A model generated the notes under the pieces. That model was given only the letters and a program-made list of their open reading frames with translations, made no database searches and had not been told where the DNA came from. A program made the translations under genes and the position numbers. Of a stretch of 64,000 bases of DNA, positions 10,575 to 56,844 are shown piece by piece. Source of the DNA: Cloeon dipterum (Eukaryota; Arthropoda; Insecta; Ephemeroptera; Baetidae); contig NC_088786.1 of NCBI RefSeq assembly GCF_949628265.1, forward strand, positions 6,510,001 to 6,574,000, read 5' to 3'. How positions within the stretch are numbered: position 1 is the first letter of the stretch; each line of letters starts with the position of its first letter.

Positions 10575-10712
10575 GAGCCCTCTCAGCCACACAAGGGCAG
10601 TTACCATGGCTGGCTTTCCTCGTTTCTGATTACGGTGATGTTTTTAGCGGATCCTTAATATCGGATCAGTGGATTCTCACTTCTACATACTACTGCTTAA
10701 TGTTAAATAATT
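10575..10712 (+). pseudogene. A0: exon-3 fragment of an A-type protease homologue
   Basis: Only the exon-3 part of an A-type gene is recognisable. It covers the GQLPWLAFLVSDYGDV region through SGSLISDQWILTSTYYC and the splice-donor area, close to exon 3 of A6. No exon 1 or 2 precedes it and no exon 4 follows; repeat R2 begins about 80 bp downstream. It is a relic of a lost array copy at the left edge of the array. Confidence 0.8.
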
Positions 10713-10792
10713 TTAAAGCCATAAGATTTTTTGATTTTTTATTATAAATATTTTCATACTTTTAAACGATTTTAAAGTTGTTAAGATAACTG

Positions 10793-11375
10793 AGCTTTTT
10801 CATGCAATGAAGGGGATGCGATGGCGTTGAACGGTCAGCGAAAACGAACACCATGGCCTCATCCGGCCTCGCAGGTTCTGTTAATATTGCTTCTCATATC
10901 CGAAAGTAAAATGCCAAAAATAGAAACGATACTAAAATCATATTATTTTGAAGCTACTGAAATTTAAACTAAAACTCAATCAGGTTTCTAGGTAATAAGA
11001 TATTGAACATATAATTCAATACACTATTCCTATTATATGCAGCAAAATTTTGAAATGAACAGCAAAAGCGGTTCAAAAGCCCATTTCCTGTTATCACCGG
11101 TGCTGCGAGCTGCGAGGACAGTGCGCACTGTGTCTGCCTATGTGGATCCATTTCAAGGTTAAATCAGAAAATCGTCAGAAACTGACCTCCAAAACGTGGG
11201 CTTGATGGCAATCTTTTACTACTGATGCGAAATTTGCAGAGCGAAATTTTATGGCTGCTATCACGTGATGTGAAACTGTGCACTGCGCGATGTCCTTCAT
11301 GGCGCACATCCTGTTGAAAACTAGTGTGAACTGAACACTGGGAACCACTACTATAAACAGTTTTATGTAAAAAGG
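10793..11375 (+). repeat. Dispersed repeat R2, near full-length copy
   Basis: R2 is about 580 bp. It starts near GAGCTTTTTCATGCAATGAA and ends near GGAACCACTTTAAACAGTTTT in the best copies. Landmarks are a TCCTGTTATCACCGGTGCTG block and a GCGCACATCCTGTTG block. Other copies lie at 23566-23830, 32035-32215, 38830-39260, 45190-45490 and, inverted, 54355-54935. I see no coding capacity and no clear terminal inverted repeats, so it is an unclassified interspersed repeat, partly spread by the array duplications. Confidence 0.75.
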
Positions 11376-12150
11376 CTATGAAGCTTAACATTATTATTTA
11401 GTCTTAACCATCTTTTTACTTGTATCACATCTATGCTCTGATTGTTTTCGTTCTTTAGTCTTATCAGCAGTAAATTATGACCGGAGCTGAATGAATATGC
11501 TGATTTCTTACACTATCATATTATGTAACAACATCACAACAGTATAGCAACTATTTACTATTCTAGGACATGAATATGACTGAACATAACAGAAATAATC
11601 ATAAAAAAGTGTATTTGCTGCCTTCAAAATAATATTTGCTTATACACATCATATTCCTGCAACTTTCAAACTCTTAATGAATTAAATTGAGGTTTCTCTA
11701 TTGGTAAGATTTTGCATAAATTAACTAATTTAAATCATCATCTGGCTCTATTAATATCAGATCTGTATTGAAGTATCTTAAAGAAGATCGAGGATTAATT
11801 ACAAAACATATGAAGTTAAATAAAATTGGAAATTTCTATCTTCTATGTATGGGCTAATAAGTCCCCGTAATAAACTCTAATAAATTTTAGGAAAACAAAT
11901 TAAGTGATTATTAACACTAAGCATTGCAAATCGATAATATAGTTATCACTGCTTATACGTAATTATTTTCAGTGACAGCGAAAGCAGCAACCAGAGTGCG
12001 TGATACAGATAGATATAGTGTGCGAGTCACTAAATCATTTTCATGGACGCAGAAAAATAGACAGGTGTGCTACTGACGTGGAGGTCGTTTTGGATCGCAT
12101 ATAAAAACCTCGCAGCCAGGTTATCCAGTCACTTCTAGCGTAGATGCAAA
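11376..12150 (+). promoter_or_regulatory. Upstream region and core promoter of A1
   Basis: This holds a diverged copy of the upstream module shared by the A genes. A GAACATAACAGAA at about 11581 is a decayed form of the heat-shock-like element that is perfect in A2, A3 and A4. The proximal part carries CAGGTGTGCTACTGACGTGG, then TATAAAA at 12100-12106 and an initiator-like TCCAGTCACTTCTAG about 30 bp downstream. Confidence 0.7.
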
Positions 12151-13852
12151 ATGTTACGGTTCAGAAAGATGCTGGTTCTGCTGTTTATGCTAACATCAAC
12201 TCAGGTGAATATTTTTTTTTAAATTTTATTTGAACATTTAGAGCAAAAAGCAATTTTGAAGTTGGTATTCGCGGTGGAAACTACTATATCAGATGCTCAA
12301 TTAAAAACGGATAATACGCAAACTGCTGGAAGCAAGGTCCAAAACGTTCTTAATGCTTTTGACGTCTCTCAGCGTATGAAAGTCAATTTCTTTTAAACTA
12401 TGAAATATAAAATATTTTAAATATTGCAAGAGCAGCCTATTTTAAAGGACTCACTGATAAGAATCTTTATCGACTCTTTGGTATTCCCACTGCAACACCA
12501 GGGCAGTTCCCATGGATGGCTCTCATCGTTGCTGCCTATATGGTGAAGTTTTTAGCGGATCCTTAATATCAGATCAGTGGATTCTCACTTCTGCATACTA
12601 CTGCTCAATGTAAAAATAATATGTACATCATTCACAACCATATGGTTTTTTGTAAAAAAAATTATTTTACTGATATTCTTTTTATGAGAAAAATGTAATC
12701 TTAATTTTAAATTTTTTCCCCTAAAAAGGTATAACTTGAGCTCTATAATCTTGGGAGTTGTCGACCATACCTACATATTGGAAAAAACAATTAAAATTGA
12801 TTATAATTTCATTTGCTACGTGCACGAGCTTTACGACCCAAATAATATGACAAATGAATACAACATAGCTCTGATCAAGATGCTGCGACCTGTCACTTTT
12901 ACAGGTATTAAAAATTGGCAGTAACAGTTAACATCAGATGTTCTAATATTTTTTCTTTAGTCAACATAGCGCCCATAAAACTTCCTTCTGTAAATGATGC
13001 CACGAAGGATTTTACTAAAGTTCCGATGACAGTTAGTGGATTTATGCCAGTGAGCTCTTGTTATAATTGTATGTATTTCATAGAATTTAGCTTGTTCAAG
13101 TCTAATAGTTTTTATTTCTTTTAAAAGATGAAAAAGACCAAAATTCAGCAACTTTCTCTCTGAAGTACGACAAACTGCAGGGGGTTAACTATACTAAGTG
13201 CTCTGCAACGCTCAGTGCAGAATATGGGATTACTTTGCCTGGATCCGCAATCTGCACAGGCAACACCAAAGTCGGACCCTGTGGTGTAAGTTGCAGTCTT
13301 AATCTTACTTTAATTTGGACGTAACCCAGATTAATTAAATTAAATCGATCAAAATAACTTTTATCATTCATCGTGCTTTCATTGAGATAAATATTTTAAT
13401 GGTAATTAACTCAAACAGGGTGTTCAAGGCGCTCCTTTATTCTACAAAAACCAAGATGGATCTTGGGTTATTGCGGGCACTATTGCATTTAGTCCCTATT
13501 ACTATTGCAACAATCCGACAGTTTTTACCCGTGTTAGCTCAAATCTTGATTGGATTTTTTCAAAAACTGGAATGGGTAGGCTCTAATAAATATTATTTTT
13601 GATAAATCTTTCAATTTGTACCAAAATCGTTCCCAGGAGCATAAACCAGCACTCCAAAAGCAACTACTGGAAAGCCCTAAACTACCACAATTACTTAACC
13701 AACCTCTAGCTCTACTGGAAAAACCACCACCACCTCTTAATCTTCAAATAAGAAGACCACCACCAAGACCACCACAAAAACCTCTGAAACTAAGAAATCT
13801 AGCAGCACCACTAAAAAACCTCTGTCTAAAATATGCTTTGATTTCATGCTTT
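12151..13852 (+). pseudogene. A1: degraded secreted serine-protease homologue
   Basis: The full A-type layout is present: signal exon 12151-12204, then exons 12262-12373, 12448-12609, 12729-12904, 12961-13068, 13128-13285 and 13419-13575, and a tail exon from about 13639. The splice sites look usable. Two defects mark it as non-functional. Exon 3 is 2 nt too long, so the frame shifts just before the FSGSL strand, and the tail exon meets a stop three codons in and has further stops. Exons 4-7 still read cleanly, with NIALIKM at the Asp102 site and GVQGAP at the Ser195 site. Decay is therefore recent. A shortened product from an internal start cannot be excluded. Confidence 0.85.
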
Positions 13853-14214
13853 GACATCTGATAATGTTTGATACACGATCTTACTGGCAAAATAACCACT
13901 TTGACGAAAAGAGCAAGAATTTATTTTACTATTGCATCTGTTTTGAAATAATTCGAAGGAAATGTCAGAAAATTATTTGATTCAATTGTCTTGAAGGGAT
14001 TCATGCAAAAATATATTATAAATAGTTTGTGTTTGGATTCAATAAAACTTTAAAATATATAAAAAACTTGTTTTTAAGAGCGGTCCAATAGTTCAATCTG
14101 CGGGAAAATCGTCAAATTAGATCATGTAATTAATTTGCTGTAGTTGAATTCCATGAAAAATTATTGTTAGTAGTTTTAAAAATAAACTAGAAATCAATCA
14201 CATGTCACATTCGA
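13853..14214. other. 3' flank of A1
   Basis: The 3' flank typical of A genes is seen, including a poly-A signal AATAAA near 14041 in the TTGGATTCAATAAAAC context shared with A2 and A8. No gene is present. Confidence 0.6.
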
Positions 14215-15445
14215 TAGGGCCATTCTGGGCATCTCCTGCAATTTTTTCACCTTCTACGGAAGAAAAAAGATCGAAAAAGCATCGGGAGTAAACTGAAAAC
14301 TGACATCCGAGCAATGCTACACGGACATGTTTTGTTCAATCCGAAACGATGAACTGCTGCATGTATATATACAGTAATTTTGTATTTTGCCATTCGTCTT
14401 ACTTTTGATTTTGGAATAATGCTTATCTGTGAGCGATCATCGCACATATATTATGAGTGCTGAAAATCGCTGCTGACTGAGCTAATTTAATTGCCATCTC
14501 TCGTTGTCTGTATTATATCTTCAAACTTTTTAACTTTCGCCGCGCCCCGCCCGCTCCTGATAATATCATGGCGGCTGACGTTATGTGTATTCAATAAAAG
14601 CTATTTTAAGCTAATCTCGGTTTGAAAGAAATGATATAGACAGAAAATTTTATTTTCTTCTCCTCTGTAAGAAAATCCGTCACATAAAACTGGTGTGTGG
14701 CATCGTGGACGGCCGTATAGATCCTACGTTATGCTCTACTAATTTTTACAGGAAATAAATTAAGCGATTAAGCGTCGCAAATTAATAATTCATTTCTCAC
14801 TGCTTACATAGGTAATATATGTATTTTAAGAGACAGCCAGAATCTGCGATACAGATATAATCTAATGAATGAGTCTGTAAATTATTTCCATTTATATATT
14901 AATTCGTATATGTATCAGTTTTGAAATAATTCGAAGGAAAAGCTAAAAATGATTTGATTGTATTTTCAAAATAACATATTTTAAAAGTTTTTCAGTTTGA
15001 ATTGAATAAAATGTTTAAAAAAGTTTAGAGGAGTAAATAATTGTTTCTGCAGGAAAATCATCTAATTAGAACTCTTATTTGATTGGGCAGAGACGCTGTA
15101 CATCTCCTCTGTCATTCTATTTTCGCCTGCTACGCGGCTTTCCACTTTCAGACCAAACACAGATGTAAAAAAAGATCAAAAAGAGAAACGGAATAAACTG
15201 GAAAATGCTCTGGCAACTCCACACGGACATGTTTTGTTCAATTCGAAACGAGTAACTGCTATAATATAAATTAACTCTGTACTTTGCCATTCGTCTCTCT
15301 TGTCTCAGCGATCGCACTTGATGATGCGAGACATCCGCTAATTTGATTGCAATCTCTCGTTATCTGCATCTTCAAGCTTTTATAACTTTTGCTGCGTCTC
15401 CCCCGTTGCTGACCATGCCAAGGTGGCTGCGTGACGTCAAATCTA
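14215..15445 (+). promoter_or_regulatory. Promoter-like module P, copies 2 and 3
   Basis: Two further copies of the module seen at 10060-10375 lie at about 14215-14600 and 15080-15445, each with the conserved TTTGCCATTCGTC about 27 bp after an AT-rich TATA-like run. Between them is AT-rich sequence without a gene. Three copies keeping the same core spacing suggest descent from a real promoter whose gene is gone, or that drives a non-coding transcript. Confidence 0.35.
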
Positions 15446-17674: not shown

Positions 17675-19492
17675 ATGTTACGATTCAGAAAGATGCTGGT
17701 TCTGCTGTTTATGCTAACATCAACCAAGGTGAATATATATATTTTTTAGTTAATTATTGGTACATTTTGTGCAAAAATATATTTGGATAAGTTGGTGGTC
17801 GCGGTGGAAACTACTAGTTCAGGTGCTGAGTTACAAGCGGACACTAAGAAAATTGCTGCAAACAAATTCCAAAATGTTCTTTTAGACGTCTCTCAGCGTA
17901 TGAAAGTTAATTTCATTTAAACAAGTAAATTTCATTTAAATATTGCAAGAAAAGGACTTGCTAATATGCAAGTTAATCGAGTCTTTGAAGATCCCACTGC
18001 AACACCAGGGCAGTTCCCATGGATGGCTTTCATCATGGCTGAATATGGTCAGGTTTTTAGCGGATCCTTAATATCGGATCAGTGGATTCTCACTTCTGCA
18101 TACTACTGCTCAGGGTAAGAAAATATATGTATCACTTTCTCATACATAAGATTTTTGTACAATTTTTATAATCAGATAGAAACGTTTTATATGAGAAAAT
18201 CGTTTATAATTTTTTTATTTGTTTCCCCTGAATAGGTATAACCTGAGCTCTGTAATCTTGGGTGTCGTCGACTATACCTTCATTGAGCAATATCCAACGA
18301 TAATAGACAATATCAATTACACTTGCTACGTGCACAAGCTTTACGACCCATATAATGTGACAAATGAACACAACATAGCTCTGATCAACTTACTACAACC
18401 TGTCTCTTTTACAGGTATCAACTACTATAAACTTGCATTTTAACATTTCCTAATATTCGTACTTTAGTCAACATTATGCCCATAAAACTTCCTTCTGCAA
18501 ATGATGCCACGAAGGATTTTACCAATGTTTCGATGACAGTTAGTGGATATATTCTAGTGAACTATTGTTATGGTTGTACGTATTTCCTATAATTTTGCTG
18601 CTTCTGGTCTAATATTTTAATTTTCTTTGATAAGATGAGAAATACCAATCTTCAGTAACCTACTCTCTGAAGTACGAAGAATTGCAGGGGATTAGCTACA
18701 CGGAGTGCGCTGCAAACCTCAGTGCAGTATATGAGATTACTTTGCCTGAATCCGCAATCTGTACAGGCAACACCAGCCTTGGATCCTGTGGGGTAAGTGC
18801 AGTTTCAACCTTATTTTGATTTTGACGTATTGCAGTTTAATTAAATTAAATCGATCAAAATAACTTTTATCCTTGGTGCTGTCATGGAATAAATATTTTA
18901 AAATTAACTAACTCATCCAGGGTGCTCAAGGCGCTCCTTTATTCTACAAGAACCAAGATGGATCTTGGGTTATAGCGGGCATTTCCACTAGTTCCTATTA
19001 CTATTGCTATTATGAAGGCACTCCGACAGTATTTACCCGTGTTAGCTCTAATCTTGATTGGATATCTGCGATAACTGGAATGGGTATAAATTATTTTTCG
19101 CAAATCTTACAATTAGATTAATTCCAAAACCGCTCCCAGGAGGATCAACTAGCACACCAAAAGCAACCACTGGAATGCCCTCAACTACCACAAGTACTAC
19201 TAAACCAACCACAACCACTAAACCTTCAACCACGACGACCACTAAACCTTCAACCACGACGACAACTAAACCTTCAACCACGACGACCGCTAAACCTTCA
19301 ACTACGACGACATTTAAACCGTCAAGTACTACGACCACCACAAAGACGACTACTAAGACCACAACTAAGACCACCACTATGACGACCACCAAGACCACAA
19401 CCAAGACTAGCACTAAGACCACCACTAAAACCACCCCAAAAACCTCAACCACTACCAAATCTAGCAGCACCACTAAAAAAGCTTCTGGCTAA
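17675..19492 (+). CDS. A2: secreted, catalytically dead serine-protease homologue with mucin-like tail
   Basis: Exons: 17675-17728, 17792-17897, 17955-18114, 18236-18414, 18468-18575, 18635-18792, 18921-19083 and 19140-19492. They read without a stop into 426 aa. Exon 1 gives MLRFRKMLVLLFMLTST, and the signal peptide probably ends in exon 2 after LVVA. The chymotrypsin-fold domain starts around NRVFEDPTATPGQFPWMAF. All three catalytic sites are lost: WILTSAYYC replaces W-x-L-T-A-A-H-C, HNIALIN has Asn at Asp102, and GAQGAP replaces GDSGGP. Cysteines matching C168/C182 and C191/C220 are kept; C42 is lost. Exon 4 has an NYTC glycosylation sequon. The tail of about 117 residues is Thr-Thr-Lys rich and ends STTKKASG. 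It is likely secreted and non-enzymatic; its ligand is unknown. Confidence 0.9.
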
Positions 19493-20684: not shown

Positions 20685-22613
20685 ATGCCAACGTTTGGGA
20701 AGATGAGGATTTTACTATTAATGCTGGTTTCAACCAAGGTGACACCTAGAAACACTATTTTGATTTTACCTAAATGCAATTTCGAAGTTGGTGTTCATGG
20801 TAGAATTTAATTCAAGAGTAGTTGAGTGGCAAAAGTTGGCCGAAGGAACACAAGGTTCTTAACGAATATTTAATAGAATGCCTTTTCACAAATTTTTATT
20901 TAATTAATTATGTTTGAACAGCAACCAACGTTGACATGGGTTTAAATTTGCCTGATAAGCGTGTTTTTGGCGGACCTTATGCAAACCTAGGGCAGTTTCC
21001 GTGGCACGCTCTCATCATAATTGACGGCAGCATGTTTTGCAGTGGATCTTTGATATCATCTGAGTGGATTTTAACATCTGGACATTGCACAGAGTATATT
21101 TTAAATCCACAAAACGTGTTATTTACACGAAGAAACGTTCTTAAATAATCTAGCCAGTTTTTGTTTATGCTATAAGTGAATACAGATTGCTTCTAAATTT
21201 TGTATAGTAATAATATTTAGCTTTACTTTAATGATATTGCTTCCTTTGTAGGTTTTACACGTACTATATCAGCATTGGCACTGTTCATTTCACCGTAGGC
21301 TCAGAATATCCAAATTACATGAACGAAGAGTACTTTGGCATTGTTCACGAGTTGTATGTTCCATTCGATCCGGCCCAACAGTCTCACAATATCGGTCTCT
21401 TCAAATTGCCCACACCTATCACGTTCACTGGTATCTATATGTTTTAAAATATATAAGTTAAAAAACAGCTATTCTACAAAATTTACCTCTAGATACAATT
21501 AAGCCCATCAAACTGCCATCCGTCTATGACTCCAATAGGGATTTTTCTGGTTCTTTGATGACAGTTTGCGGGTTTGGGTCATCATCAGCAGAGTATTCTA
21601 ATATGCCATGTATGTAAATCCCAAATTAGTATTTTTTGATCGCCGCTGGTAATTTTATTTCTCACTTCAGATGATAACAATCAATACTCCAGCAACTTCT
21701 CTCTGAAATACGTGCAATTGCCGGTGATCAACTACACCGAGTGTGCCTTGATCTATAGCACTAATTTTGCGTTGCCCAACTCCGCCATTTGCACTTACAT
21801 TAAAGGCGTCGCACCGTGTGACGTAAGTTTTAAAGTTAAAGTCTAAAATTCATTTTTTTTTAAAGATATTTAATATATTAAAAATGTATAATATTTTATA
21901 TTATGCTGAATTTTATAAAGCCATAAAATATTCCTAAAAATTCATAAAAAAAATAAATTCCATTCAACCTCATTTGTTAATTTTTAGGGCGACGAAGGTG
22001 CCCCTTTAATCTATAAGGACCAGAATGACGACTGGGTTTTGGTGGGTGTTGTTTCTTACATCCCTTCGGATGATTGTTTGGCCGGTCCGACAGTCTACAC
22101 CCGTGTTAGCTCTTACCTTGACTGGATTTCAGCAACAACTGGACTTGGTGAGACCTTTTTCGAAAAAAATCATCTCTCTTTAAAAATGATGTTAAAGATT
22201 TCTTGGGAACAACAACTACCACGCCGACAACCGCCACTCGTACCATATCCAACGCTAAAACAAGCACAATTAAACCGACCATCACTACAACAACTAAATT
22301 AAGCTTAACCAGTACCAAATTAATCTCAACCACACCAAGACCAACTACAACCACCACCAAAAAATTTACAACAATAACAATCAAATTGACATCAACTTCA
22401 ACTAAAAAAACCACAACTGTAGCAAAATCAACAACAACTAAGCCAACCACGACAGCAAGACCTACAACTACAAAGACAACAACTAAACCGAACACCACCA
22501 GAACCTCAACAAAACCTACAACTACCAGAACCACGACAAAGCCAGCCACTTCCAAGACCACAACAACAAAGAAAATTGTCACCACTACTACTAGAAAGAT
22601 TAAATCTGGTTGA
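20685..22613 (+). CDS. B: secreted serine-protease homologue that keeps His57
   Basis: Exons: 20685-20738, 20788-20854, 20922-21093, 21252-21430, 21493-21609, 21671-21822, 21988-22147 and 22198-22613, giving 438 aa with the same intron phases as A genes. The start at 20685 gives MPTFGKMRILLLMLVSTK, which aligns residue for residue with the A signal exon. An activation-type junction is seen at DKR-VFGG. WILTSGHC keeps His57 and its cysteine, and FCSGSL keeps C42. Asp102 is Asn (HNIGLFKL) and Ser195 is Glu (GDEGAP), while Asp194 is kept. The tail is a long Thr-rich mucin-like region of about 135 residues ending KIKSG. It is secreted and almost certainly not an active protease. It is the only complete B-type copy; relics lie behind A3, A7, A8 and A9. 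Confidence 0.9.
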
Positions 22614-23565
22614 CAATTTATATGATAATATCTGTTAACGTTTTTCTTTTATAATAAATAATGATTTATAATGAAATTATATTCATTAAATACCATCAAT
22701 TCTATCGTGTCTTTTCTTACTTGCGAACAAAATGCTTGGGTCTGCGTTTCTCTAATTCTTACAAGCAGCAAAAGCAAATTTTTAAAAATCCTCAAAAATA
22801 TCAAATCTAGAATCATTACTGACCATAGTGATAACTATATATTGTGACTAAACAGAAAACTAGTGCACAGCAAATTTGTTATGATGACATAAAAATTTTG
22901 CTGTCAAGTTGATGCAGAAACTGGAGCATGGCGTTATAAATTTGAACGATAGTTGCAGCTATAAATTTCAGTTGATAAAGATCTATTCATCATCATCATG
23001 GTGCACCAGTTGGCCACATCTAATGATACAAACTGCGTACGTGATAGAAGTTAAGCAACAAACAGCATGACGTGCAAAATTATTCAACTGTTGTAGAAAT
23101 AAAAAGAATGTGAGTGTTATTTTTAAATATTTTGATCTACTAGTTTCAAGATGTTGTATTGGATGTTAATGTTAGAATTTTGACGGATATCGCACTACGA
23201 GAACTAGTTATGGAATTTTGCTTTGGCCGATTTAGAAAGAAAACGATTTTATTATTTTAAACTCCCATTCTTGCTAGATTTACTGTCATTAACACAAGCT
23301 TCTGCCTCAAGGTGGATAAAGGTTCGATAATGATTGTTGTATTTGAGAATAAAAAAATGAGAAAAACAAAAATAATAAATAATAACAAAGTAGCAATCCT
23401 ATAGTTTGCAATTAATGTATGTTAAAAATACACGCAGGACAATGTGATTTAAAAATTTATATTCGGAAACAATAAAGCAAACTTATATTCTTTTTAGCGT
23501 TGGCCGCTGCTTGTGTAAATGCTCTAGGAGCCTAATTTTCGTCCGCGTTGAGTATACTGCATCTC
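22614..23565. repeat. Gene B 3' flank, duplicated after A4 (R3)
   Basis: No gene is seen. The stretch from about 22830 to 23520 matches 31165-31830 behind A4. Shared blocks include AATTTGTTATGATG, TTGCTGTCAAGTTGATGCAG and GCGTACGTGATAGAAG. Because the second copy lies directly after an A gene with no B gene between, it indicates that the A4 unit once had a B gene that was deleted. Confidence 0.7.
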
Positions 23566-23830
23566 ATTTCTGAAAGTAAAATGTAAAAAATATAAACAAT
23601 GAAAATCATATATTTTAGAAGATACTGAAATTTAAAACATCATTGTTTTAAAGTAATCATAAATTGAAAAATATCTTGAAGGTACGAGAAAATATTTTAA
23701 GTTTATGAACTATTCCTAGCTAGTATGCAGATAAATTTTGAAACAATCATCAAAAGCTGTTCAAAAGCTCATTTCCTGTTATCACCGGTGCTGCGAGCTA
23801 CGTGGAAAAATCACTCTGCTTCTGCCTAGA
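23566..23830 (+). repeat. Partial R2 repeat
   Basis: This matches the middle of R2 (10860-11110 in the first copy), including TCCTGTTATCACCGGTGCTGCGAG. It ends abruptly where the A3 upstream module starts. The same right-hand junction is present at 28070-28140 because the block was duplicated. Confidence 0.65.
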
Positions 23831-24720
23831 ATCATTGCAAAATATTATATGCTCTAGATTTTTACTTCGTCATCTCTTTCGTATTGCAACACATGGACTC
23901 TGCCCTAAAATATGAAAGCTCCAACGTAGGCATAATTTCGCAGTGATGGAAGTTGCATGAATGAATTCGGCCAAGCGATGTTTTGTTTTGCGAGAATCAC
24001 GTGAATAAATTAAGAAACAAATTTCCAATTTTGTGTCCTAGATTTTATGGGTTGAACGATTACATATTTTGCAACAATGAATGAAATTTTTAGCATGTTG
24101 CGACATGTATGACAGCTGCCATAATTTTTCAACTGATATAAATCAAACTGATGATTTCTGACGTCGAACACAGATGAAGAAGAATATGCAGATTAATTCT
24201 TACACTATATCGTAAGTTGCAGCACCACAGCAGATTATTACTAATGACAATCATACTCAGGGGATGACTTTGACTGAACGTTCCAGAAAAAATTGAATAA
24301 TATGTTGATTGCTGCATTCAAAATAATATTTGAGCTATGAACAACATATTCCTTCTACTTTCTAACTTTTGACGGAATACATTTTCATGAGGTTTCTCTA
24401 TTGGTTCTCACTGCCTAGATAATTTATCTTCAGTGACCGCGACAGAAGCAACCAGAATGCGAGATACAGATACAATCTAGTGAATGACGAGTCAGTAAAT
24501 AATTGTCATGGGACGCAGAAAAATATACAGGTGTGCTGCTGACACGGAGGATACTCTGATTCGCATATAAAACCTCGCTGCCGCTGGTTGTCCACTCACT
24601 TTTAGCGTACAAGTAAAATGTTACGGTTCAGAAAGATGCTGGTTCTGCTGTTCATGCTGACATCAACTCAGGTGAATATTTATTTTTAATTTATGATGTA
24701 AATTTAAAGCAAAAATCAAT
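23762..24720 (+). repeat. Near-identical duplication of 28069-29030
   Basis: By eye, about 950 bp upstream of and including A3 exon 1 match the A4 upstream region with only scattered differences. The left edge lies inside the partial R2 repeat. The match weakens within exon 2 and the protein-coding parts downstream are clearly more different. It is either a recent conversion or duplication limited to the promoter, or the coding region has changed faster. Confidence 0.85.
24129..24617 (+). promoter_or_regulatory. A3 promoter with heat-shock-like element
   Basis: GAACGTTCCAGAA at 24276-24288 is a perfect three-unit nGAAnnTTCnnGAA element about 340 bp before the start codon. Proximal elements are CAGGTGTGCTGCTGACACGG, TATAAAA at 24566-24572, and a TCCACTCACTTTTAGCG initiator region. 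The short open frame on the opposite strand here also occurs in the A4 copy, which simply reflects the duplication. Confidence 0.65.
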
Positions 24721-38084: not shown

Positions 38085-38370
38085 GCGGCATAATACCAAC
38101 GTTAGAAAAGACGATTTGGCTATTGATTCATTTCAACCAAGATGACACCCTAAAAATCTGGTTTTACCTAATTGAAATTTGGAAGATGTTGTTTACGTTA
38201 AAATATAATTCTAGAGTAGTTGAATGGAAAAAGTTGACTAACGGAACACAAGATACTAAAAAAATATATTATCAAACATCTTTTCACCATTTTTTAAAAT
38301 TAATTAAACAGCAACCAACAACGCTGACAGGGGTTTGAATTTGCCTGATAAGTGTGTACGCGGTTATCTC
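38085..38370 (+). pseudogene. B7: relic of a B-type protease homologue
   Basis: B-type exon 1 (about 38090-38140, start codon lost), exon 2 (about 38180-38260, matching VVEWQKLAEGTQ with changes) and the first part of exon 3 (38311-38368, matching ATNVDMGLNLPDKRV) are recognisable but out of frame with each other. Nothing of exons 4-8 remains. An unrelated sequence follows. Confidence 0.8.
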
Positions 38371-38399
38371 CTTAATAGCAATACATTTCCCGATCATTC

Positions 38400-43724: not shown

Positions 43725-44204
43725 AACTTACTTTGATTTCATGCTTTGGCTTCTGATGTTTGAATTACGATATATTCATTGGCATAAAATGTCCACTTTG
43801 ACAAAAATAAAGAGGATTTACCCAATCACATATGTTTTAAGCTGCATAATTTTTTAAATTATTCGTGGGAATATTCAAAAGGTATTTATTTTTTCTTTTT
43901 GAAAAAATATTTTTAATTTAAACGATAATTGCAGCTATAAATTTCAGTTGCAATAATGTTTTAAAAACTATGTATCTGGATTGAAATAAAATTTGAAAAG
44001 GGGTCATTAGTTTATTTTCCAGGAAAATCATCAAATTTGATACTCGCTTCTCTCGTGCATTACATTAATTTGCCGTAGTTGAATTCTATGAATAATTATT
44101 GAAAATCATCCAGATTTTATGCACTCGGAATCCAAAGTTTCATTTTAATTGGCTGCTGGTGCTTGGGCACCAGTCAGGTTGTACCACGCTAAAAAATATT
44201 TCGA
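43725..44204. other. A8 3' flank
   Basis: AT-rich sequence with a poly-A signal near 43986 in GGATTGAAATAAAAT context, as in the sibling copies. No gene is seen. Confidence 0.55.
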
Positions 44205-44630
44205 GGAGAAAACTAATGGCGCTGCCGATGCACAGAGTGGCGATATGGACTCGTATAGGCTGGCCAACTTAGGCATTTCCAGCGTAGCAGCATATGCCAA
44301 CTTTTGAAAAAACGTGGTTTTTGCGATTAATGCTGGTTTCATTTGATGTGAGAATCAACAAAATCAATTATGGCTTTACCTAGAATTGCAATTTTGAAGT
44401 TGGTGTTCGCGCTAGAATTTGATTAAATGTATAGATGAGAGGCAAAAGTTGGCCGATTGAACACAAGGTTCTTAATGAAATAGACAATCGAATATCTTTT
44501 AACATATTTTTATAATAAATTATGTCCAAATAGCAACAAATGCTGACAGCAGGGGGGGTGAATTGGCCCGATAAGCGTATTTTTGATGGACCCTATGGTA
44601 ATTTAGGGCAGAGTCCGTATCACTCTGCAA
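44205..44630 (+). pseudogene. B8: relic of a B-type protease homologue
   Basis: A B-type promoter relic (TGGCGCTGCCGATGCACAGA, 44217) is followed by exon 1 (ATGCCAACTTTTGAAAAAAC at 44293), exon 2 (about 44392-44470) and the start of exon 3 (about 44530-44630, matching PDKRVFGGPYANLGQFPWH). Stops and frame changes occur in each. Exon 3 is broken off where an R1 repeat begins, in the opposite orientation to the R1 in B3 and B9. Confidence 0.85.
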
Positions 44631-45095: not shown

Positions 45096-45189
45096 GCTTC
45101 TTTACTTGTTGTTTTTTAAGAAATCATGAATTTAAGCAACTGTTTGAATAAGTGCAATACACAAAAGAAATAAATTATTCCTATTTATG

Positions 45190-45490
45190 TAGCAAAATTT
45201 TGAAACGAACAGCAAAAGCTGTGAGCTACGTGGACAGTCGCTCTGTGTCTGCCTGTGTGGCTTCATTTCCAGCTAAAATCAGCAAACCGTCAGAAACTGA
45301 CTACCAACGCGGGCTTGATAACAATCTTTCACTTCTCATGCGAAAATTTAAGTGCAAAATTTAATGGCTGCTCTAACACGTCATGTGAAACTGTGCGCTA
45401 CGTGATTTCCTCCATGGCGCACATCCTATTGCAAAATAACGTGAACTGAACGCTGATGGGAACCACTTTAAACAGTTTAATTGAAAAACT
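45190..45490 (+). repeat. R2 repeat, partial copy
   Basis: This matches the right half of R2 (GAAACGAACAGCAAAAGCTG to GGGAACCACTTTAAACAG), lacking the ATCACCGGTG block. Confidence 0.7.
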
Positions 45491-46618
45491 ATTGGGCTAA
45501 AAAACATTTTTAGTGTATACAATCATTTTACTTGTACCATAATATATGATCTGATATTTGTGTTTTTGTTCATTATTTTTATCAGCAGTAAATTGACAAG
45601 AGCTAAACGCCGCCATTGGTCGCGTCGAATTTGAATCGCAGCGGTTGGTGGCATATGTCTTTCCTCGAAATATAGGTGCTTTTTATTGTTCTTAATTTAT
45701 AGGAGGTGTCATCATAGCAAAATGTCAGCATATGCTCTAGATTTTTCCCTCGTCATCTCTTTTCTATTGCAATAGATGGACTCTGTCATGAATTATGAAA
45801 GATCCAGCGTAGCAATATTTCGCAACGATGGAAGTGGCATAAATTATTGCTGTCAAACGTTATTTTATCCTTTGAGCATCACGTGAGTAAATTTTGAAAC
45901 AACTTTCAAATTTTGTGTCCTTTTGGGGTTGAAGGACTCCAATATTTTTCAATACTAGAATAAAATCTTCTAGATGCATCAGCAGCCTTGAATTTTCAAC
46001 CTAATTTTCTGACGTAAATGGATCCAGGGATAATACATATGTAGATGAATTCTTACACTATCATATGTTGCAAATCTATACCAGTGGCAATTTTTCTCGG
46101 GATGACTACGACTATGATCGTGCCAGAAAAATCATAAATTAAATATGTTCGCTTGACGCATTCAAAATAATAGTTTTACAATTTTTGACTTATTAGCTTT
46201 CTATACCTGATTTTATCTTGCGGGAAAAGACATTGTAAAATCAGTTGAGTCCAAAATGCAGCTCGAGAAAGGATAATTTTCTTCCATTCCATAAGAAAAT
46301 TTGTCACATAAAACTGGTTTGTGCGCAATGGCATCGCTAACGATGACCCCACGTTAAACTCTAATAGTTTGTAGAAGAAATAAATTAAGCAATGCTAATT
46401 TTAATTTAGTTCTCACTGCCTATGTAATTTATTTTCATTGACAGTGACATCATCAGCCAGAATTCGTGATAAAGGTATAATCTAATGAATGAGTCAGTAA
46501 ATCATTTTCATGGACCGCAGAAAAATAGACAGGTGTGCTGCTGACGCGGAGGATGCTTTGGCTCGCATATAAAACCTCGCAGCCGCTGGTTGCTCATTCA
46601 TTTCTAGCGTAGAACCAA
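45491..46618 (+). promoter_or_regulatory. Upstream region and promoter of A9
   Basis: The upstream module starts at about 45640 (ATGAAAGATCCAGCGTAGC near 45799). The heat-shock-like element is degraded (GATCGTGCCAGAA near 46116). Proximal elements are CAGGTGTGCTGCTGACGCGG, TATAAAA at 46568-46574 and a CTCATTCATTTCTAGCG initiator region, all close to those of A8. Confidence 0.65.
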
Positions 46619-48355
46619 ATGCTACAGTTCAGAAAGATGCTAGTTCTGCTGTTTATGCTGACATCAACTCAGGTAAATATATTTTTTAATAAATTTGTAC
46701 ATTTAGAGCAAATAACCATTTTGAAGTTGGTAGTCGCGGTGGAAACTACTAGTTCAAAAGCTAAATTACAAGCGGATAATTCGAAAATGGCTATAAGCAA
46801 CTACCAAAACATTATCAATGTTTTTGATGGCTCTAACCGTATGAAAGTAAATTTCTTCTTAACTATGTATTTTAGTTTAAATATTGCAAGTGCAGCCAAC
46901 TTTAAAAGACTTGCTGACAAGCATCATCTTAATAAACGAGCCTTTGATTTGTCCACTGCAACACCTAGGCAGTTCCCATGGATGGCTCTCATCATTGCTG
47001 AAAATGGTCAAGTTTTTAGCGGATCCTTAATATCGGATCAGTGGATTCTCACTTCTGCGTTCTACTGCTCATTGAAAAATAATATAATGTATTACTTTAA
47101 CAATGATATAGGATTTTTGTAAAAATTCATAATTTGTCTGATTTGTTTTGAGAGAAATATTTATACTTTTAATTTGATTTCCTTGAAAAGGAAAAACATA
47201 AGCTCTATAATCTTGGGTGCCGTCGACTATTCCTTCATTCAGCAATATACAGCGATAACAGAAACATCTAATTACACTTGCTACGTACACGAGCTTTACG
47301 ACCCATATAATGTGACAAACGTCCACACCTTAGCTCTGATCAAAATGCTACAACCGGTCACTTTTACAGGTATCAACTATTATAAAATTACATTTAAAAT
47401 AGATTTTCTAATATTCTTACTTTAGTCAACATAATGCCCATAAAACTTCCTTCTGTAAATGATGCCACGAAGGATTTTACTAATGTTTTGATGACACTTT
47501 GTGCATTTAGGCAAATGAGCTCTTGTTATACTTGTATGCATTTCTTTGAATTTTGTTGCTCAAATCTAATATTTTTTCTTTAATAAGTTGACACATACAG
47601 CGATTCATTAACCTTCTCTCTGAAGTACAAAGAATGGCTGGGGGTTAGCCACGTAGAGTGCTCTACAAACTTGCAAAACGTTGCAATTCATTTGGTTACT
47701 ACTCTGCCTGACGCCAAAATCTGTGCACTAGACAACACCGATGTAATCTGTGATGTAAGTTGCAGTCTTACACTTTATTTAATTTTGACTTAACACAGTT
47801 TAATTAAATTAAATCATTCCAAAAAACTTTTATATTTAGTGTTTTCATGGAGATATATATTTTAATATTAATTAACTCATCCAGGGTGTTGAAGGTGGTC
47901 CTTTAGTCTACAAGAACCAAGATGGATCTTGGGTTATTGCGGGCATTAACACATTAGCAATTCTCAACTGTGATTACCTTGACGGCAACCTGACAGTCTT
48001 TACCCGTGTTAGCTCAAATCTTGATTGGATATCTTCGATAACTGGAATGGGTGGGCCCCTATATAAATTATTTTTTGCAATTATTATACGTAGATTAATG
48101 CCAACAGCGCTCCCAGTAGGATCAACTAGCACACCAAAAGCAACCACTGGAAAGCCCTCAACTACCACAAGTACTACTAAACCGACCTCTACTGGAAAAA
48201 CCACCACGACCACTAAACCATCGAGTACAAAGAAAACCACCAAGACCACAACCAAGACTAGCACCAAAACCACCACAAAAACCACCACTAAAACCTCCCC
48301 GAAAACCTCAACAACTAAGAAATCTAGCAGCACCACCAAAAAAGCGTCTGGCTAA
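46619..48355 (+). CDS. A9: secreted dead protease homologue with shifted splice donor
   Basis: Exons: 46619-46672, 46727-46838, 46896-47088, 47191-47369, 47426-47533, 47588-47754, 47885-48050 and 48117-48355, giving 405 aa. Exon 3 differs at both ends. The acceptor used by siblings is out of frame here, but a nearby AG at 46894-46895 keeps the frame. The usual donor after TGCTCATT has lost its GT, and a GT 21 bp further on (47089) keeps phase 2 and adds LKNNI. Triad sites are SAFYC, HTLALIKM (Thr at Asp102) and GVEGGP (Glu at Ser195). The junction before the domain reads NKRAFDLSTATP. The tail, about 79 residues, is the shortest of the set and ends STTKKASG. B9 and then the intact BTB gene follow. 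Confidence 0.85.
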
Positions 48356-48729: not shown

Positions 48730-48930
48730 TGACTGCTGGATATGCTACGCTACAAAATCGAGGAGAAAATTAATGGCGCTGCTGACGCGCCGAGTGGATA
48801 TGGAGTCGTATATAAAACATTTCGGCTGGCCAACTCCGTCATTTGTAGCGTTGCGGCACATTTTGCCAACGTTAGAAGAGATGAGGATTTTACTATCAAT
48901 GCTGGTTTCACCAAGGTGTGAAACCAAACA
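48730..48930 (+). pseudogene. B9: promoter and exon 1 of a B-type relic
   Basis: The B-type promoter is well kept: TGGCGCTGCTGACGCGCCGA, TATATAAAA at 48809-48817 and CTCCGTCATTTGTAGCG. Exon 1 follows, but its first start codon is changed; a downstream ATG (48881) opens MRILLSML before a frame change. Repeat R1 follows instead of exons 2-8. Because the promoter looks intact, transcription without a B protein is possible. Confidence 0.8.
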
Positions 48931-49150: not shown

Positions 49151-49670
49151 CGAGTCGGTGCCGGTGCGCTTCCCAACCCGTTCAGATTTTTGATCATTTC
49201 TAGTCACTTAACTAACCACCTTATGCCATCTCAGACATGAGCCGCTGCGTGTTACTGCTTTTCGAAGCGTAATTTTCGTCAACGCCTGCAGATAGAGAAG
49301 TTAGGCAACGTGCGTGCTGCCGCTGACACGCACGTTGCAGAAAACTTCCTTTTTACTGATGAAATAAAAACAAATTCCTACCATTTCTTTTACAAATAAC
49401 GATCTGGATCGTGGAAGAATAAGCTGCAGGATGCAAGGAAAGAAATAATTCCTGCTCTGCATTGCTACAAATGCTGTCATACCAAAGGAAATATACTGGC
49501 CAAGGAGACTCGCTGGCGGGATTTCTGGGCCAGGGGGATTCTATACGTGCTATTCAACTAGTTCATCTTCATGTTAGCCTTCAAATTCTTCATTTCCATT
49601 CTTGCCATTTGAACTAGCTCTGCTGCCTCTTCAAGATCTTCTCGCTTTATAGACCCGGAAAGATTTTAAA
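49151..49670. other. BTB 5' flank with short hairpin
   Basis: A perfect 12-bp inverted repeat, GCAACGTGCGTG and CACGCACGTTGC, lies at 49305-49316 and 49327-49338 with a 10-base loop. A diverged copy of the surrounding block is at about 31855-31925. The rest is the upstream region of the BTB gene; I see no clear TATA box. Confidence 0.6.
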
Positions 49671-52475
49671 ATGGACCAAATCATGCATAGCCTGGCAGCC
49701 AAAAAGCTAAAAGCTTTGAAAAGTGGTGAAGCTGCAGACCTGAGTATTATCACCAAAGGTATCGCATCGCCAAAAAAAGAAGGAGCAAGTCACATTAAGG
49801 CAAGTTTCATAGAAAATTCCTGAAATTTAGTTTGATTGAATTTGGAGCAGGTGTACGCATCAAAAGCGGATCTGATTGCTGCTAGTGATTATTTCAAATC
49901 GAAATTGCAAGGAGAACCACAAAAAGATTCAATTGAATTGGAAGGGTTTGACTCCGAAATCGTAACGCTAGTTGTTGAGTAAGTGTCCTGCGGTTATAAG
50001 TTTTGGTCCAAAATTGATTTGCCACTCTTCTTGTTCCAGGTTTACGTTTCTCAGCGGCTGGCTGATGACCGAAGTGAAAGACCTGAATCAATGTTTGATG
50101 CTTGCTCGAGCTGCCCAGGAATTCAAAATCGACTCACTCGGAGAGCTGTGTGGTTGTCTCCTTTCGAACAAATTCCTCGAACTGAACCAAATTTGGAGAG
50201 TCTACGACGGACAATTCGGCAAAGCTGCTCAGGTCAAAGTCGTGTTGGAATCTGCCCGAAAAGTAATATATAAATATTGTTTTTTAATGTTAATATAATT
50301 TCCATTGTGTATTTAGTTTGTGTCCGAGAAGGTGAAGGAATGCATGCTCCAGCCAGGATTTATCGACATCAAGCATGCTACACTGGTGGACCTTCTTAAC
50401 GTGCATTGCTTGCGTGTTGAGTCAGAAGCCATCCTTGTACAATACTCTCAAAAGCTTGCTAAGGAAATCGCAAGATTGGGTCTTAAAACGTAATCGAAAT
50501 TATTTTTTCTGCAAAATTTCTTTATAGGCGTATTCTTAATTCGTCATTTGGAAAGTCTTTCTAGTGTTAAAAGCCGTCAGTAAATGACACCATTATTTCA
50601 TTCAAGGTAAGCGCACGCGAGAATTCACCAGTTGCGTAAGTCCTTTTAGTGTTCTAATCCGCACCAATAGATGGCGCCAGTAGTTTCTTTTATGCTATGG
50701 TTTAAGACTCAATCCTGCTGCTGTGCATTCTGCTTCTAGAATTTTTTCTCTAGACGAGCTGATGACAAAAATCAGCCATTCACCGTAAAAACTTCGGAAA
50801 ATATTTTTCATTTTAAAAAAAATAGTTTTTCACGATTCTACGGCGATTTGCTTGACCAAATTTGGTTTTCAACACGTCTCAAAGGAAAATATAATAAGTG
50901 AAGAATGCACAGTTGCAGGATTTAGTCTGAAATCGCGGTGGAAGTGCCTTAAAACTAAATTTTTAAGAACGTATAAGGTGGCGCCATCTGTTGACAGCTT
51001 CGAACAATAAGGGTTTATGCAACTGGTCAGTTATATTTCGTTTCCGTTCGCGCTTAGTGGTCACCAATCAAAGGAGTCAACCAACTTGTCCCTCCATAGC
51101 TGGATGGAATAGCGATGCACGACGAAAGCGGAGAATGTGCGCAGTTTGTGGCGCTGCTAGTGGAGGGGGATGAGTGCGTGTTCATTTTCCCACACTCTCC
51201 CCCCTCCATTGCCCGCAAATATCACCACGAGGCTGTTGAATCCCCACTCCTCCGAGTCACATGACTGGCCGCAGAATTCCGCCATGTTTTAATATACAAT
51301 TATTTAAATCCTGCCGCTACTGTGAATTCTATTTAACAGAAAATCATATGTCAATTTAGAATCCTAAAAGAAATTCTTTTTGACATAAAATCTTTTCTGC
51401 TGTTTTTATACCGCGATTGGCTGAGCCTTAAGACTGCTTCAAAAACTACAGTGACACTGTTCCAATTGGTGAAATTAAATTTACAATTTCTACGCTTCTG
51501 ACCCGTAAAAGAACAAATAACTTATCAAAATAATATTGCAGCCTCGCCAAAGAAGTCTTCCGCGAATACTTTCTTCCTCATCTGCGGCTGCTGACCTTAA
51601 AAGCCGAAGAGATGGGCCCGGTGTTGAGCATGATCGAATCGGAAGAAGCTATCCACTTTGCCCGTGTGCAGGCGCCACCGTGTCTGAAAATGTTGCTGCC
51701 AAATAAATCCGAGTCGTTTCGGTGCGGCTTTAGCACAATTGTGTCTCCGAGATACAGGAGACTCGAGAGAAGAATTGGATTTTTGGCAAGAGAAAACCAC
51801 TTGGGCCTTCACAGGACTGAAAATGATTTCATCTGGAAGAACTACTTTTTCCTCAGCGAGAAAGAGCAGAAGTTTGTACTGAGCTTCGTGGCACCATTTA
51901 AAATGACCGTTACCAAACTGGAAGTCGTCCTGCCTCTGCGCAAGAGCCATTACAATGCAATTGATGTCTTCAAATGGTACAAAAAATTTAATTAAAATAT
52001 TTTGATTTAAATGCCTATGGAAATGAGCCATATTGGCGATCACGATAAAACAATTTTGAATTATAATTCGAAAAAAAACTTTAAGAGTAAAAGGAGTAAA
52101 AGTAACAAATATTTTTAATGTTTCAGTCTGGCATTTGATCCATTGACTTGCTTTGAATTGCCGTCAAAAGCCACAATCACTACTAGCTTAATTGCCGACG
52201 ACGACCTGAGCCTCTACTCCAAGGGGGATTTCGAGAATCCCTGGTCCACATGGAAAACGTTCAATTTTGTTGAAAAGGGCAGTCAGGTGTCGATTGAGTT
52301 TTGCTTCAACGCACCATGCTTCTATAAAAGGGCAGCCTTGGACTGCGAAATCTCCGTCGATATTCCTTTCACATTCAAGCTGTTCGATAGGAGCGAGGAG
52401 AGTTCTTGGATGGAAGTTCAGAACCAGGGCACCAACCTTTTCCACAGCCTGTCCTATGAGACCTTTGAAATCTGA
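49671..52475 (+). CDS. BTB/BACK-domain protein
   Basis: Exons: 49671-49799, 49851-49978, 50040-50262, 50317-50489, 51542-51976 and 52127-52475, giving 478 aa. A BTB/POZ-like region spans about residues 22-130 (LSIITKG, VYASKADLIAASDYFKSKL, VVEFTFLSGWL). A BACK-like helical region follows, from about LNQCLMLARAAQEFKI through SLAKEVFREYFLPHLR, then a beta-rich C-terminal part of unknown type. Such proteins often act as Cullin-3 adaptors or transcription cofactors in the cell; no substrate can be named. Intron 1 uses a GC donor (AAG-GCAAGT) with a normal AG acceptor. Intron 4 is about 1 kb and holds a terminal-inverted-repeat element. A poly-A signal AATAAA is at 52667-52672. The gene is unrelated to the protease homologues but took part in the array duplication. 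Confidence 0.85.
50608..51056. mobile_element. MITE-like element in BTB intron 4
   Basis: The element has imperfect terminal inverted repeats of about 75 bp. The left end is TAAGCGCACGCGAG with CACCAGTTGCGTAA and AGATGGCGCC further in. The right end, read in reverse, is TAAGCGCGAACGG with GACCAGTTGCATAA and AGATGGCGCC. The inside has no coding capacity. It looks like a non-autonomous DNA transposon. It lies wholly within the intron, so it should not affect the protein. Confidence 0.75.
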
Positions 52476-54354: not shown

Positions 54355-54935
54355 AACTGTTTAAAGTGGTTCCCAGCGTTCAGTTAACGCTATTTTGCAA
54401 CGGGATGTGCGCCATGGAGGAAATCACGTAGCGCACAGTTTCACATCACGTGATAGCAGCCATAAAATTTTGCACTGAAAATTTCACATCAGTAGTGACA
54501 GATTGTTATCAAGCCTGTTGGTAGTCAGTTTCTAACGTTTTTCTGATTTTAACTTGAAATGGAGCCACGCAGGCAGAAACAGAGCACACTGTCCACGCAG
54601 CTCGCAGCTCGCAGCAGCAGTGAAAACAGGAAATTAGCGTTTGAACAGCTTTTGCTGTTCGTTTAAAAATTTTGATATACATTATATATAAGAATATTTT
54701 CTTACTTTTGCACATTTTATGCATCTTCAAATATTTTTTTCAATTTGTGATTACTTAAAAAAATTTTGTTTTAAATTTCAGTATCTTCTAAATAATATGA
54801 TTATTTTATGATTGACATTTTACTTTCGGAAAATAGAAGCTGTAGATACTGAAACTGAGAGACCGGATGAGGCAATGATTGCTCGTTTTCGCTGGCCGTC
54901 CAACGCCATTGTTTCATTGCATGAAAAAGCTCCTA
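54355..54935 (-). repeat. R2 repeat, inverted, abutting gene C
   Basis: This is a near full-length R2 in reverse orientation (GTGGTTCCCAGCGTTCAGTT at the left, CATTGCATGAAAAAGCTCC at the right). It ends about 18 bp before the start codon of gene C, so the gene's proximal promoter and any 5' leader must lie within R2 sequence or be extremely short. Confidence 0.8.
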
Positions 54936-54952
54936 ACCTCTCGTTTGGATAT

Positions 54953-56844
54953 ATGAAGGGCTTGCTGTTGCTAGTAGTTGTAGTAAAGGTAGCTCTTTGA
55001 AAATTTATCCATTTTCATTTCTTATGTCAAAAGTTTTTAAGTTGGTGCTAACTGAGGAAACTTTGCAAAGAACCGAGGATGATTTGCAGAAATTGACCGT
55101 AAATGATCGACTGAAGCGAGAAATTCCTGCTGAAACTAACCAACGTAAATTGCATTGTTTTATAGTAAAATATTTTTCAAAAACAAACTTTCTATTTAAA
55201 ACAGCTAGCACCCCATCAATTGGCAAGCGAATTATCAACAATAACCCTCAATGGGGAAGCTTTAAATGGCACGCGATCATCGGTAGAACAACTCTTCCCT
55301 TTTATTGTGGTGGCTCCTTAATATTGCCTCAGTGGGTCTTGACAGCTGCTTCTTGCTCTGCGTGAGTTTCTTTTTTCAATTTTTAGCAGGTTCTACCACT
55401 GTGATTGTAGATTAAAACTTGCTCATGTTATTGAAATTTTACATGTAACGTTCCAAGCATTAAAATCAGTTCAGCCAATCAAAGTATAAAAGCCTGAAAA
55501 ACTACTTTTCAAAAATAAAAATCTTTGTTATTTGCTTCTACCGTGTTTCGCTACACCATTTTTTATTTTATTAAGAACACCAAAATATTTGACGCCGAGA
55601 ATGCACGGCAGCAAGATTAAATAGTAAATTTTGAAAAATAACGTTGAAAAAAATTTGATGTACAAAATTACTAACATTAAAAGCATAATAATACAAAATT
55701 AGAAAAATATATAGATTTAAACTTTTAGGCCACGCTATGAAATTCGATTGGGTGAAATTGTCATCACTACTCAGCCTCCTGATCCTGGATCTGGCCGCTA
55801 TCTGTTAATAGCAACCTATACGATCGTTCATGAGCTATACGACAGCACATCTCACGCCAATGACATCGCTCTGATTAAGCTCCCAACGGCCGTCAACTAC
55901 ACAGGTTTTTTCAACGAAGACAAGAATTCAGAGCTTTTATATCTATTAATACTTAAAATGTTTTACGACAGATTCTGTCCAACCTATTCGACTGCCATTT
56001 ATGACAGATGCATATGATGATTCATTTGGTGAATCGGCGAGAGTCACTGGTAACGGCCAATATGATGACGGTATAAAGTTTGCCAAAAAGTACGTCTATG
56101 ATGCTATAACATTCATCGCAATTTATAGCTTTTCTTGGAATAAGGCTTAACCTCATGAATACTGAAGTGACAGTTATCAACAACACACAATGTGCGTCTT
56201 ACTACGGCAGTGACATCATTACTCAATCAATCATCTGCACTTTCCAAAATGGCACAGCGCCGTGCACAGTATGATTCTTAATAATTTGAACTATTTTGTA
56301 TAGTTCATAGGGAGTTATAAAATGCAGCATTATTTATTTTCTTAAAGGGTGACGAAGGAGGCCCGTTGGTCTACACAGGCCCTCGCAACGACCAGGTCCA
56401 GATTGGCATTGTCTCGTTTTATCCATTCGGAAGCTGCTTAGCCGGCCCGACAGGCTACACCCGCGTCTCGTCCTATCTTGATTGGATTTCAAAAATGACT
56501 GGACAAGGTTTGCACTCAACCACTCGTCATTTGTCAGGAAGCTATTATTTATAAAATAATTTTCAGATTTTTCGGGTACAACCACAGCTTTTCCGCCCAG
56601 TAAAACAACTACGAAAAAAACCACAACAATTAAAACAACCACTACAAAAAAGCCGACAACCACAAAAACTACAACTACCACTACCAAGAAACCTACAACA
56701 ACAAAAACTACTACCACCAAGAAACCTACAACAACAAAAACTACAACCACCAAGAAACCTACGACGACAACTACCAAAAAACCGACAACTACAAAAACCA
56801 CTACATTGAAAACTACAACTACGAAGAAAGTGCTATCAGGTTGA
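54953..56844 (+). CDS. C: divergent secreted serine-protease homologue with mucin-like tail
   Basis: Exons: 54953-54988, 55042-55144, 55205-55361, 55729-55904, 55972-56070, 56129-56268, 56348-56507 and 56567-56844, giving 382 aa with the same intron phases as A and B. The signal peptide is MKGLLLLVVVVKLVLT. The domain junction is SIGKRIINNNPQWGSFKWH. It is the most protease-like member: C42 and C58 are kept (FYCGGSL, WVLTAASC), Asp102 is kept (NDIALIKLP), and Asp194 is kept in GDEGGP. His57 is Ser and Ser195 is Glu, so it cannot work as a serine protease. The tail of about 90 residues has TTTKKPTTT repeats and ends KVLSG. Another start upstream (54812) would add residues encoded by the R2 repeat and is less likely. 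Confidence 0.9.

Follow-up and report, generated by a model that had tools for sequence, protein, structure and literature searches.

Why would an insect genome hold a string of protease-like genes none of which has a full catalytic triad? The question is raised by a 64,000-nucleotide stretch of Cloeon dipterum DNA (assembly GCF_949628265.1, contig NC_088786.1, positions 6,510,001 to 6,574,000; hereafter the window, with positions counted from its first letter), in which a sequence-only reading had placed an array of secreted, catalytically dead serine-protease homologues (SPHs) with mucin-like tails: seven readable genes of a type A, one of a type B and one of a type C. The gene models that could be predicted here confirm the array, with corrections to the gene count. 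The explanation we favour, and to which we give about even chances of being right, is that these genes would form a birth-and-death family and encode secreted binders with a catalytically dead chymotrypsin fold, the former substrate cleft acting as a variable binding face borne on a cationic mucin-like tail.

Gene models and loss of the catalytic triad

Nine gene models were rebuilt: A3, A4, A5, A7 to A10, B and C. Those of the A genes were read from an eight-way DNA alignment of the A copies, with splice sites that recur across copies, and those of B and C by inspection; all are splicing predictions derived from the sequence of eukaryotic DNA with spliceosomal introns. Intron phases (0,1,2,1,1,0,1) are identical in every model, and 62 of the 63 introns are 49-165 nucleotides long, the outlier being an intron of 367 nucleotides in C. 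Exon 1 encodes a signal-like start, exons 2 and 3 the pro-region, exons 3 to 7 the protease fold and exon 8 a Thr/Lys-rich tail. The architecture that had been ascribed to the whole family therefore stands for all nine models as regards phases, signal-like start, pro-region and chymotrypsin fold, but for only eight as regards the tail, which A5 lacks.

Eight of the genes are complete, each with eight exons and a product of 382-438 residues. These are (on the forward strand except A7) A3 (17675-19492; 426 residues; tail exon 19140-19492), B (20685-22613; 438 residues; tail exon 22198-22613), A4 (24618-26381; 410 residues; tail exon 26089-26381), A7 (33330-35170, reverse strand; 431 residues, with a shifted exon-8 acceptor), A8 (35831-37569; 400 residues), A9 (41989-43724; 399 residues), A10 (46619-48355; 405 residues, with a shifted exon-3 donor and an exon-3 acceptor that differs from the other copies) and C (54953-56844; 382 residues; tail exon 56567-56844). 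The single B and C genes thus appear as they had been described, as full eight-exon models, but the figure of seven readable A genes has to be reduced: six of ten A copies are complete. Of the other four, all on the forward strand, A5 (28931-30325) has an open protease domain of 314 residues and a stop at the tail junction; A2 (12151-13860, 3' end approximate) is a pseudogene with a 2-nucleotide insertion in exon 3 and stops in its tail exon; and A1 (10564-10715; direct repeat family D12) and A6 (32210-32525), both recognized from tblastn and blastn matches, are fragments, the first of exon 3 with stops present, the second of exons 4-5. Of the six A-B units, one has an intact B.

A complete His57-Asp102-Ser195 triad, as judged by alignment landmarks, is found in none of the nine models, and the claim that no gene has one survives the rebuilding of the splice models. 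Position 57 is Y, F, L or S in the A genes, with a one-residue insertion beside it, H in B and S in C. Position 102 is N in A3, A4, A5, A8 and B, G in A7, T in A10, and D in C and in A9, where it is the sole triad residue left. Position 195 is Q, E or L in the A genes and E in both B and C. In activated proteases Asp194 is the partner of the new N-terminus: it is lost in six of the seven A genes, A8 being the only one to keep it.

The fold itself is readily recognized. The Pfam Trypsin family (PF00089) matches each of the three models scanned (A3, E 5.1e-23; B, 8.5e-33; C, 2.9e-38), and DUF1986 matches part of the same domain, above its cut-off in B and close to it in A3. A profile of all nine models matches 555 distinct sequences of the PDB at E <= 0.001, the best solved relatives being plasma kallikrein (2.6e-36) and Hypoderma collagenase (1hyl; 3.6e-36); by whole-domain sequence match the proteins belong to the chymotrypsin-fold S1A family. 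Relatives were also sought further afield: none was confirmed among 24 candidate stretches of viral contigs, and 90 stretches of bacterial and archaeal genomes yielded 38 loci with 22-34% identity, all under bacterial titles. Exon 1 begins with a short, hydrophobic segment, judged by eye to be signal-peptide-like (MLRFRKMLVLLFMLTST in four of the seven A genes, with one or two changes in the other three, and MPTFGKMRILLLMLVST in B). Behind it lie the pro-region, with no regulatory domain, and an Arg at the zymogen-cleavage position, just before the mature N-terminus, that is invariant in all nine models. In this organization the family is, to judge from its predicted products, a variant of the single-domain insect SPH to which a C-terminal tail has been added.

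CLIP domains are N-terminal and cysteine-knotted. Their absence, noted earlier, is borne out by the lack of a Pfam CLIP match in the three models scanned and by the lack of any cysteine in the nine pro-regions. This bears on the idea that the proteins are cofactors of an immune cascade, as are CLIP-domain SPHs in phenoloxidase activation: a dead S1 fold and an Arg that never varies at the cleavage site would suit such a role, but the missing CLIP domain would not, and a constant cofactor would need no variable front. We consider this explanation highly improbable. Within the heads, canonical Cys42 is gone from all seven A genes and Cys58 is retained, and two cysteines of the A heads (alignment columns 158 and 222) have no counterpart in B and C. 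There are seven cysteines in five of the seven A heads and in B, eight in A9 and A10, and six in C; where the number is seven, and hence odd, one is in principle free.

Selection around the former substrate cleft

Site models fitted to the seven A genes (219 gap-trimmed codons of the protease domain) give strong signs of diversifying selection: twice the log-likelihood difference is 73.1 for M1a against M2a and 73.3 for M8a against M8, with approximately 27% of codons at a ratio of nonsynonymous to synonymous substitution (dN/dS) of 4, and 32% at 0.19. Under the null model M1a the highest value was 7.14 among 40 simulated sets in which six blocks recombined, and 6.99 among 20 simulated without recombination, one simulation of each kind exceeding 5.99 (an earlier trial set gave 0.04). 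The signal persists when only the six complete genes are used (68.5), when A5 and A10 are omitted (45.8) and when exon 6 is omitted (44.4). By the NG86 method, averaged over 21 pairs of A genes, dN/dS is 0.25 for the signal segment, 0.69 for the pro-region and 1.09 for the protease domain (above 1 in 13 of 21 pairs). Of the seven exons compared, exon 6 is alone in having a one-ratio dN/dS that significantly exceeds 1 (3.05, P = 1.1e-4, uncorrected), and its dN of 0.367 exceeds both its dS (0.170) and the divergence of the two flanking introns (0.286 and 0.249).

These values bear directly on the suggestion that the array is a graveyard in progress, its copies drifting since catalysis was lost. 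The broken state of A1, A2, A6 and the B-like remnants, the lost tail of A5 and a mean domain dN/dS near 1 would all suit relaxed decay; such decay predicts a ratio of 1, however, and not a class of sites at 4, a point with which the null simulations agree. Neither would decay leave uninterrupted reading frames of 382-438 codons, with splice sites in place, in eight genes (six of type A, and B and C), TATA boxes in both A and B, and strong conservation at 44 of the 219 columns. Such decay is an improbable account of the array.

The location of the selected sites speaks for the favoured explanation. There are 29 columns with a posterior above 0.9, and 25 of these fall in loops ringing the former substrate cleft: the 37, 75, 99, autolysis, 170 and 186 loops, together with position 195, 213-220 and 225-226 (the selected sites themselves including 195, 213-217, 225 and 226). 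The 60 loop, where one column was tested, has none. Cleft loops make up 60 of the 219 tested columns, which gives a hypergeometric P of 1e-12, an optimistic figure because the loop borders, though set by alignment landmark, were chosen after viewing the alignment. Conserved columns show the opposite distribution: two of the 44 lie inside cleft loops, and 13 fall in alignment columns 185-211 (approximately residues 112-137), which we take to be the connection between the two barrels, at the back of the molecule. As to a functional surface away from the dead cleft, of the type described for the inactivated proteases of the scabies mite (see below), the two classes of site point in different directions: the conserved sites avoid the cleft loops, but the fast sites are the cleft loops.

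Selected sites at the S1-pocket and substrate-strand positions (213-217, 225 and 226) are also what might be expected of a decoy for protease inhibitors, in which the dead heads would absorb canonical inhibitors, dietary or self, through the old cleft. This would be a special case of the explanation that we favour. With Asp194 gone from six of the seven A genes a normal cleft may not form, however, and so varied a pocket suits many ligands, not inhibitors alone; we consider the inhibitor decoy improbable.

Returning to the broader reading – variable binders on a mucin-like tail – we envisage that the protein would be secreted and that the former cleft, with the 99, autolysis, 170, 186 and 213-226 loops, would present a binding face to fast-changing or varied partners, candidates being ligands from microbes, host or mate, or protease inhibitors. 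The segment conserved around residues 112-137 would keep the fold or dock a constant partner; the basic Thr-rich tail, if O-glycosylated, would be an extended stalk holding the heads in mucus, matrix or secretion; and duplication together with sequence exchange among copies would give rise to new heads. A more specific version is that the dead cleft is a hypervariable recognition face, and that the paralogous heads, which combine a constant promoter and signal with a variable front, a conserved remainder and a mucin-like tail, and which are renewed by block duplication and sequence exchange, amount to a germ-line repertoire, be it of secreted binders or of decoys. This we put forward tentatively, as a possibility that falls short of even. 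A role in recognition, adhesion or decoy had been suggested for the array at the outset: for recognition and decoy the selection around the former active site is independent support, short of proof.

Several points weigh against this interpretation, in addition to the optimism of the hypergeometric figure. The likelihoods come from our own codon code, not cross-checked by a standard program, with branch lengths taken from a one-ratio fit and rescaled in common in the site models. Over the whole domain the one-ratio dN/dS is 1.25 in the trimmed alignment, which is not significantly above 1 (P = 0.063), and 1.30 in the untrimmed (P = 0.020); mean domain dN (0.252) is below mean intron divergence (0.303), and a whole-domain dN above the neutral rate was accordingly rejected. 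Fast evolution is evident only in one class of sites, and not in the domain as a whole. The low dS of exon 6 inflates its ratio. A segment test on columns 211-285, a stretch picked once the data had been inspected, carries no weight in the argument. Nor is it clear that a variable head is joined to a constant tail: dN/dS of the tail is 0.23 by NG86 (15 pairs) but 0.97 by maximum likelihood with F3x4 codon frequencies (78 codons, six genes), which leaves the contrast ambiguous and led us to reject strong purifying selection on the tail as a firm claim, and M2a exceeds M1a by 9.8 in the tail with 4% of codons. Finally, an arms race and divergence of the copies to different fixed ligands look alike to site models applied to paralogues.

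Tails, promoters and duplication

In composition the tail is as mucin-like as had been claimed: a long, repetitive, Thr-rich region of 79-138 residues, 39-55% Thr and 14-23% Lys, in eight of nine models. Its length varies between copies, and KPTTT repeats are present in the tails of B and C. In the eight tailed models (A5 excluded) the isoelectric point (pI) of the tail is 11-12 compared to 4.4-6.3 for the head. An acidic head joined to a basic tail of KPTTT or TTTK repeats might self-associate, and the proteins could then be a structural adhesive – a glue, silk, egg coat or mating plug – with the head mainly a folded cross-linking block. The opposed charges and the Thr content are in keeping with this, as is the odd cysteine count in five of the seven A heads and in B, which would permit bonds between chains; moreover, Sgs3 of Drosophila melanogaster has approximately 31 KPTTT repeats (PMC6352337). 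From an adhesive, however, one would not expect diversifying selection to centre on the former cleft, and the head of A5 stays open even though its tail is lost. We judge this explanation to be unlikely.

The loss in A5 can be traced to a single codon: that spanning the exon 7/8 junction is TGA. Since the tail exon behind it remains open in frame, to 30771, the loss looks recent. The length of the tail exon is in one phase in all seven A genes, which for the six open genes is a consequence of their being open; the phase of the A2 tail exon was discounted, its end having been set by us.

Each of the eight A copies scanned, the A2 pseudogene among them, has TATAAA 51 or 52 nucleotides ahead of its start codon, and B has TATATA at -56; within 160 nucleotides upstream of the C start codon there is no TATA or initiator match. 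The strict initiator pattern near -25 is found only in A8, A9 and A10 (of the eight A copies) and in B. The A10 core promoter (46566-46600, forward strand) has TATAAA at -51 and the initiator-like TCATTC at -25. Promoter and first exon are conserved, and the loops round the former cleft are what differ between paralogues.

The order of the copies suggests how the array arose. B-like remnants, recognized by tblastn and blastn against the window and all on the forward strand, stand after A4 (26786-27772, with stops present), A8 (37988-38400) and A9 (44203-44626), the last two running from the upstream region to exon 3, and after A10 (48760-48918; upstream region and exon 1); after A5 there is a match to the 3' flank of B (31168-31254). 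We infer that several rounds of duplication multiplied an old block comprising A, B and a C-like piece, with A retained more often and the other two mostly decaying. A9 and A10 are 94% identical over 205 nucleotides of upstream DNA and exon 1 (repeat family D9). A4 and A5 are 96-100% identical in 10 of 10 windows of 100 nucleotides from 23782 to approximately 24775, which takes in upstream DNA, exon 1 and intron 1, and beyond that point 69-94% identical per window, exons and introns alike, a pattern that points to sequence exchange between copies.

Two further observations concern the DNA between the genes; like the B-like remnants, they were not part of the sequence-only reading. Segments 23761-24060 and 28067-28366, ahead of A4 and A5, are duplications with 99% identity, much younger than the gene bodies behind them. 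The upstream region of C has five minus-strand matches (10792-10974, 23555-23752, 32014-32199, 38828-38895 and 45112-45214), which may represent a dispersed repeat or else the promoter of a reverse-strand gene that has been lost.

Between A10 and C, at 49653-52475 on the forward strand, are pieces of a BTB/BACK-type gene: a BTB match (E 0.00024) at 49836-49979, a BACK-like piece below the Pfam cut-off at 50317-50490, and a segment without a match (51534-52475) that we assign to the same gene as a guess. A 650-codon open frame at 58429-60378 (forward strand) is Gag-like, matches the CCHC zinc knuckle weakly (E 0.00085, below the Pfam cut-off) and may represent either a retroelement or a retroelement-derived gene. 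Open frames on the reverse strand at approximately 10086-10340, 14250-14450 and 15120-15359, two of which share the peptide RSLR-ERRMAK and the third a shorter similar stretch, are probably a dispersed repeat. Scans of the window for tRNAs and, at gathering score, for Rfam families were negative. The sizes of the introns, the layout of the promoters and the invertebrate nature of the closest relatives suggest an arthropod.

Comparison with known systems

That insect SPHs usually carry CLIP domains, as the sequence-only reading had supposed, is not generally so. On the counts available from the two papers, 102 of 125 SPHs of Tenebrio molitor are without a regulatory domain (PMC11172050) and six of 13 honey bee SPHs have a clip domain (PMC1761132); the missing CLIP domain is therefore ordinary. 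The unusual features are, on present gene models, the Thr/Lys tail and the pattern of selection. A dead protease of this kind, with a Thr/Lys tail and no CLIP domain, was not found in the literature as judged on titles and the openings of abstracts, a search in which a mention in full text could be missed and subscription journals are mostly uncovered.

The Tenebrio SPHs without a CLIP domain resemble the proteins of the array in their S1A fold, broken triad, lack of a regulatory domain, mostly acidic character and expansion by duplication (PMC11172050). They differ from the array proteins, which carry a Thr/Lys tail and show selection in a ring about the dead cleft; no mucin-like tail is apparent for the Tenebrio proteins, the terms 'threonine', 'Thr-rich' and 'mucin' not occurring in the main text of that paper. 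The Sgs glue mucins of Drosophila offer the converse likeness, with Thr-rich repeats of the KPTTT type in variable number; the available text describes no protease fold for them, whereas the array proteins are mostly folded head (PMC6352337). In Anopheles gambiae a small cluster of serine protease genes expressed in the female tract has selected residues around the active site in two of three proteins. It is like the array in being a small gene cluster; those proteases, however, were modelled with a catalytic triad, and the array proteins have no triad and a mucin-like tail (PMC3068966).

Insects have many dead proteases, 125 in Tenebrio alone, and the role of such proteins is, according to the authors who counted them, still poorly understood (PMC11172050). 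In the array the sequence by itself marks out a surface under selection, set apart from a conserved segment and a tail, and binding through the former cleft is thus directly testable. The closest point of reference is the SMIPP-S family of the scabies mite, a family of inactivated serine protease paralogues. Two of its members, D1 and I1, inhibit the lectin pathway of complement by way of a site distinct from the residual active site, the S1 site being blocked by a conserved Tyr (PMC4031079). The two families are alike in being large sets of dead chymotrypsin-fold paralogues and, it would seem, in that the surface away from the dead active site is conserved. They are unlike in that the dead-cleft side of the array proteins is under diversifying selection and in the Thr/Lys tail, no such tail being mentioned for SMIPP-S in the portion of the paper available (PMC4031079). 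If our explanation is correct, the array would show a family of pseudoenzymes that has become a set of variable binders, and the same fold would be put to use differently from the scabies-mite paralogues, which act through another site (PMC4031079).

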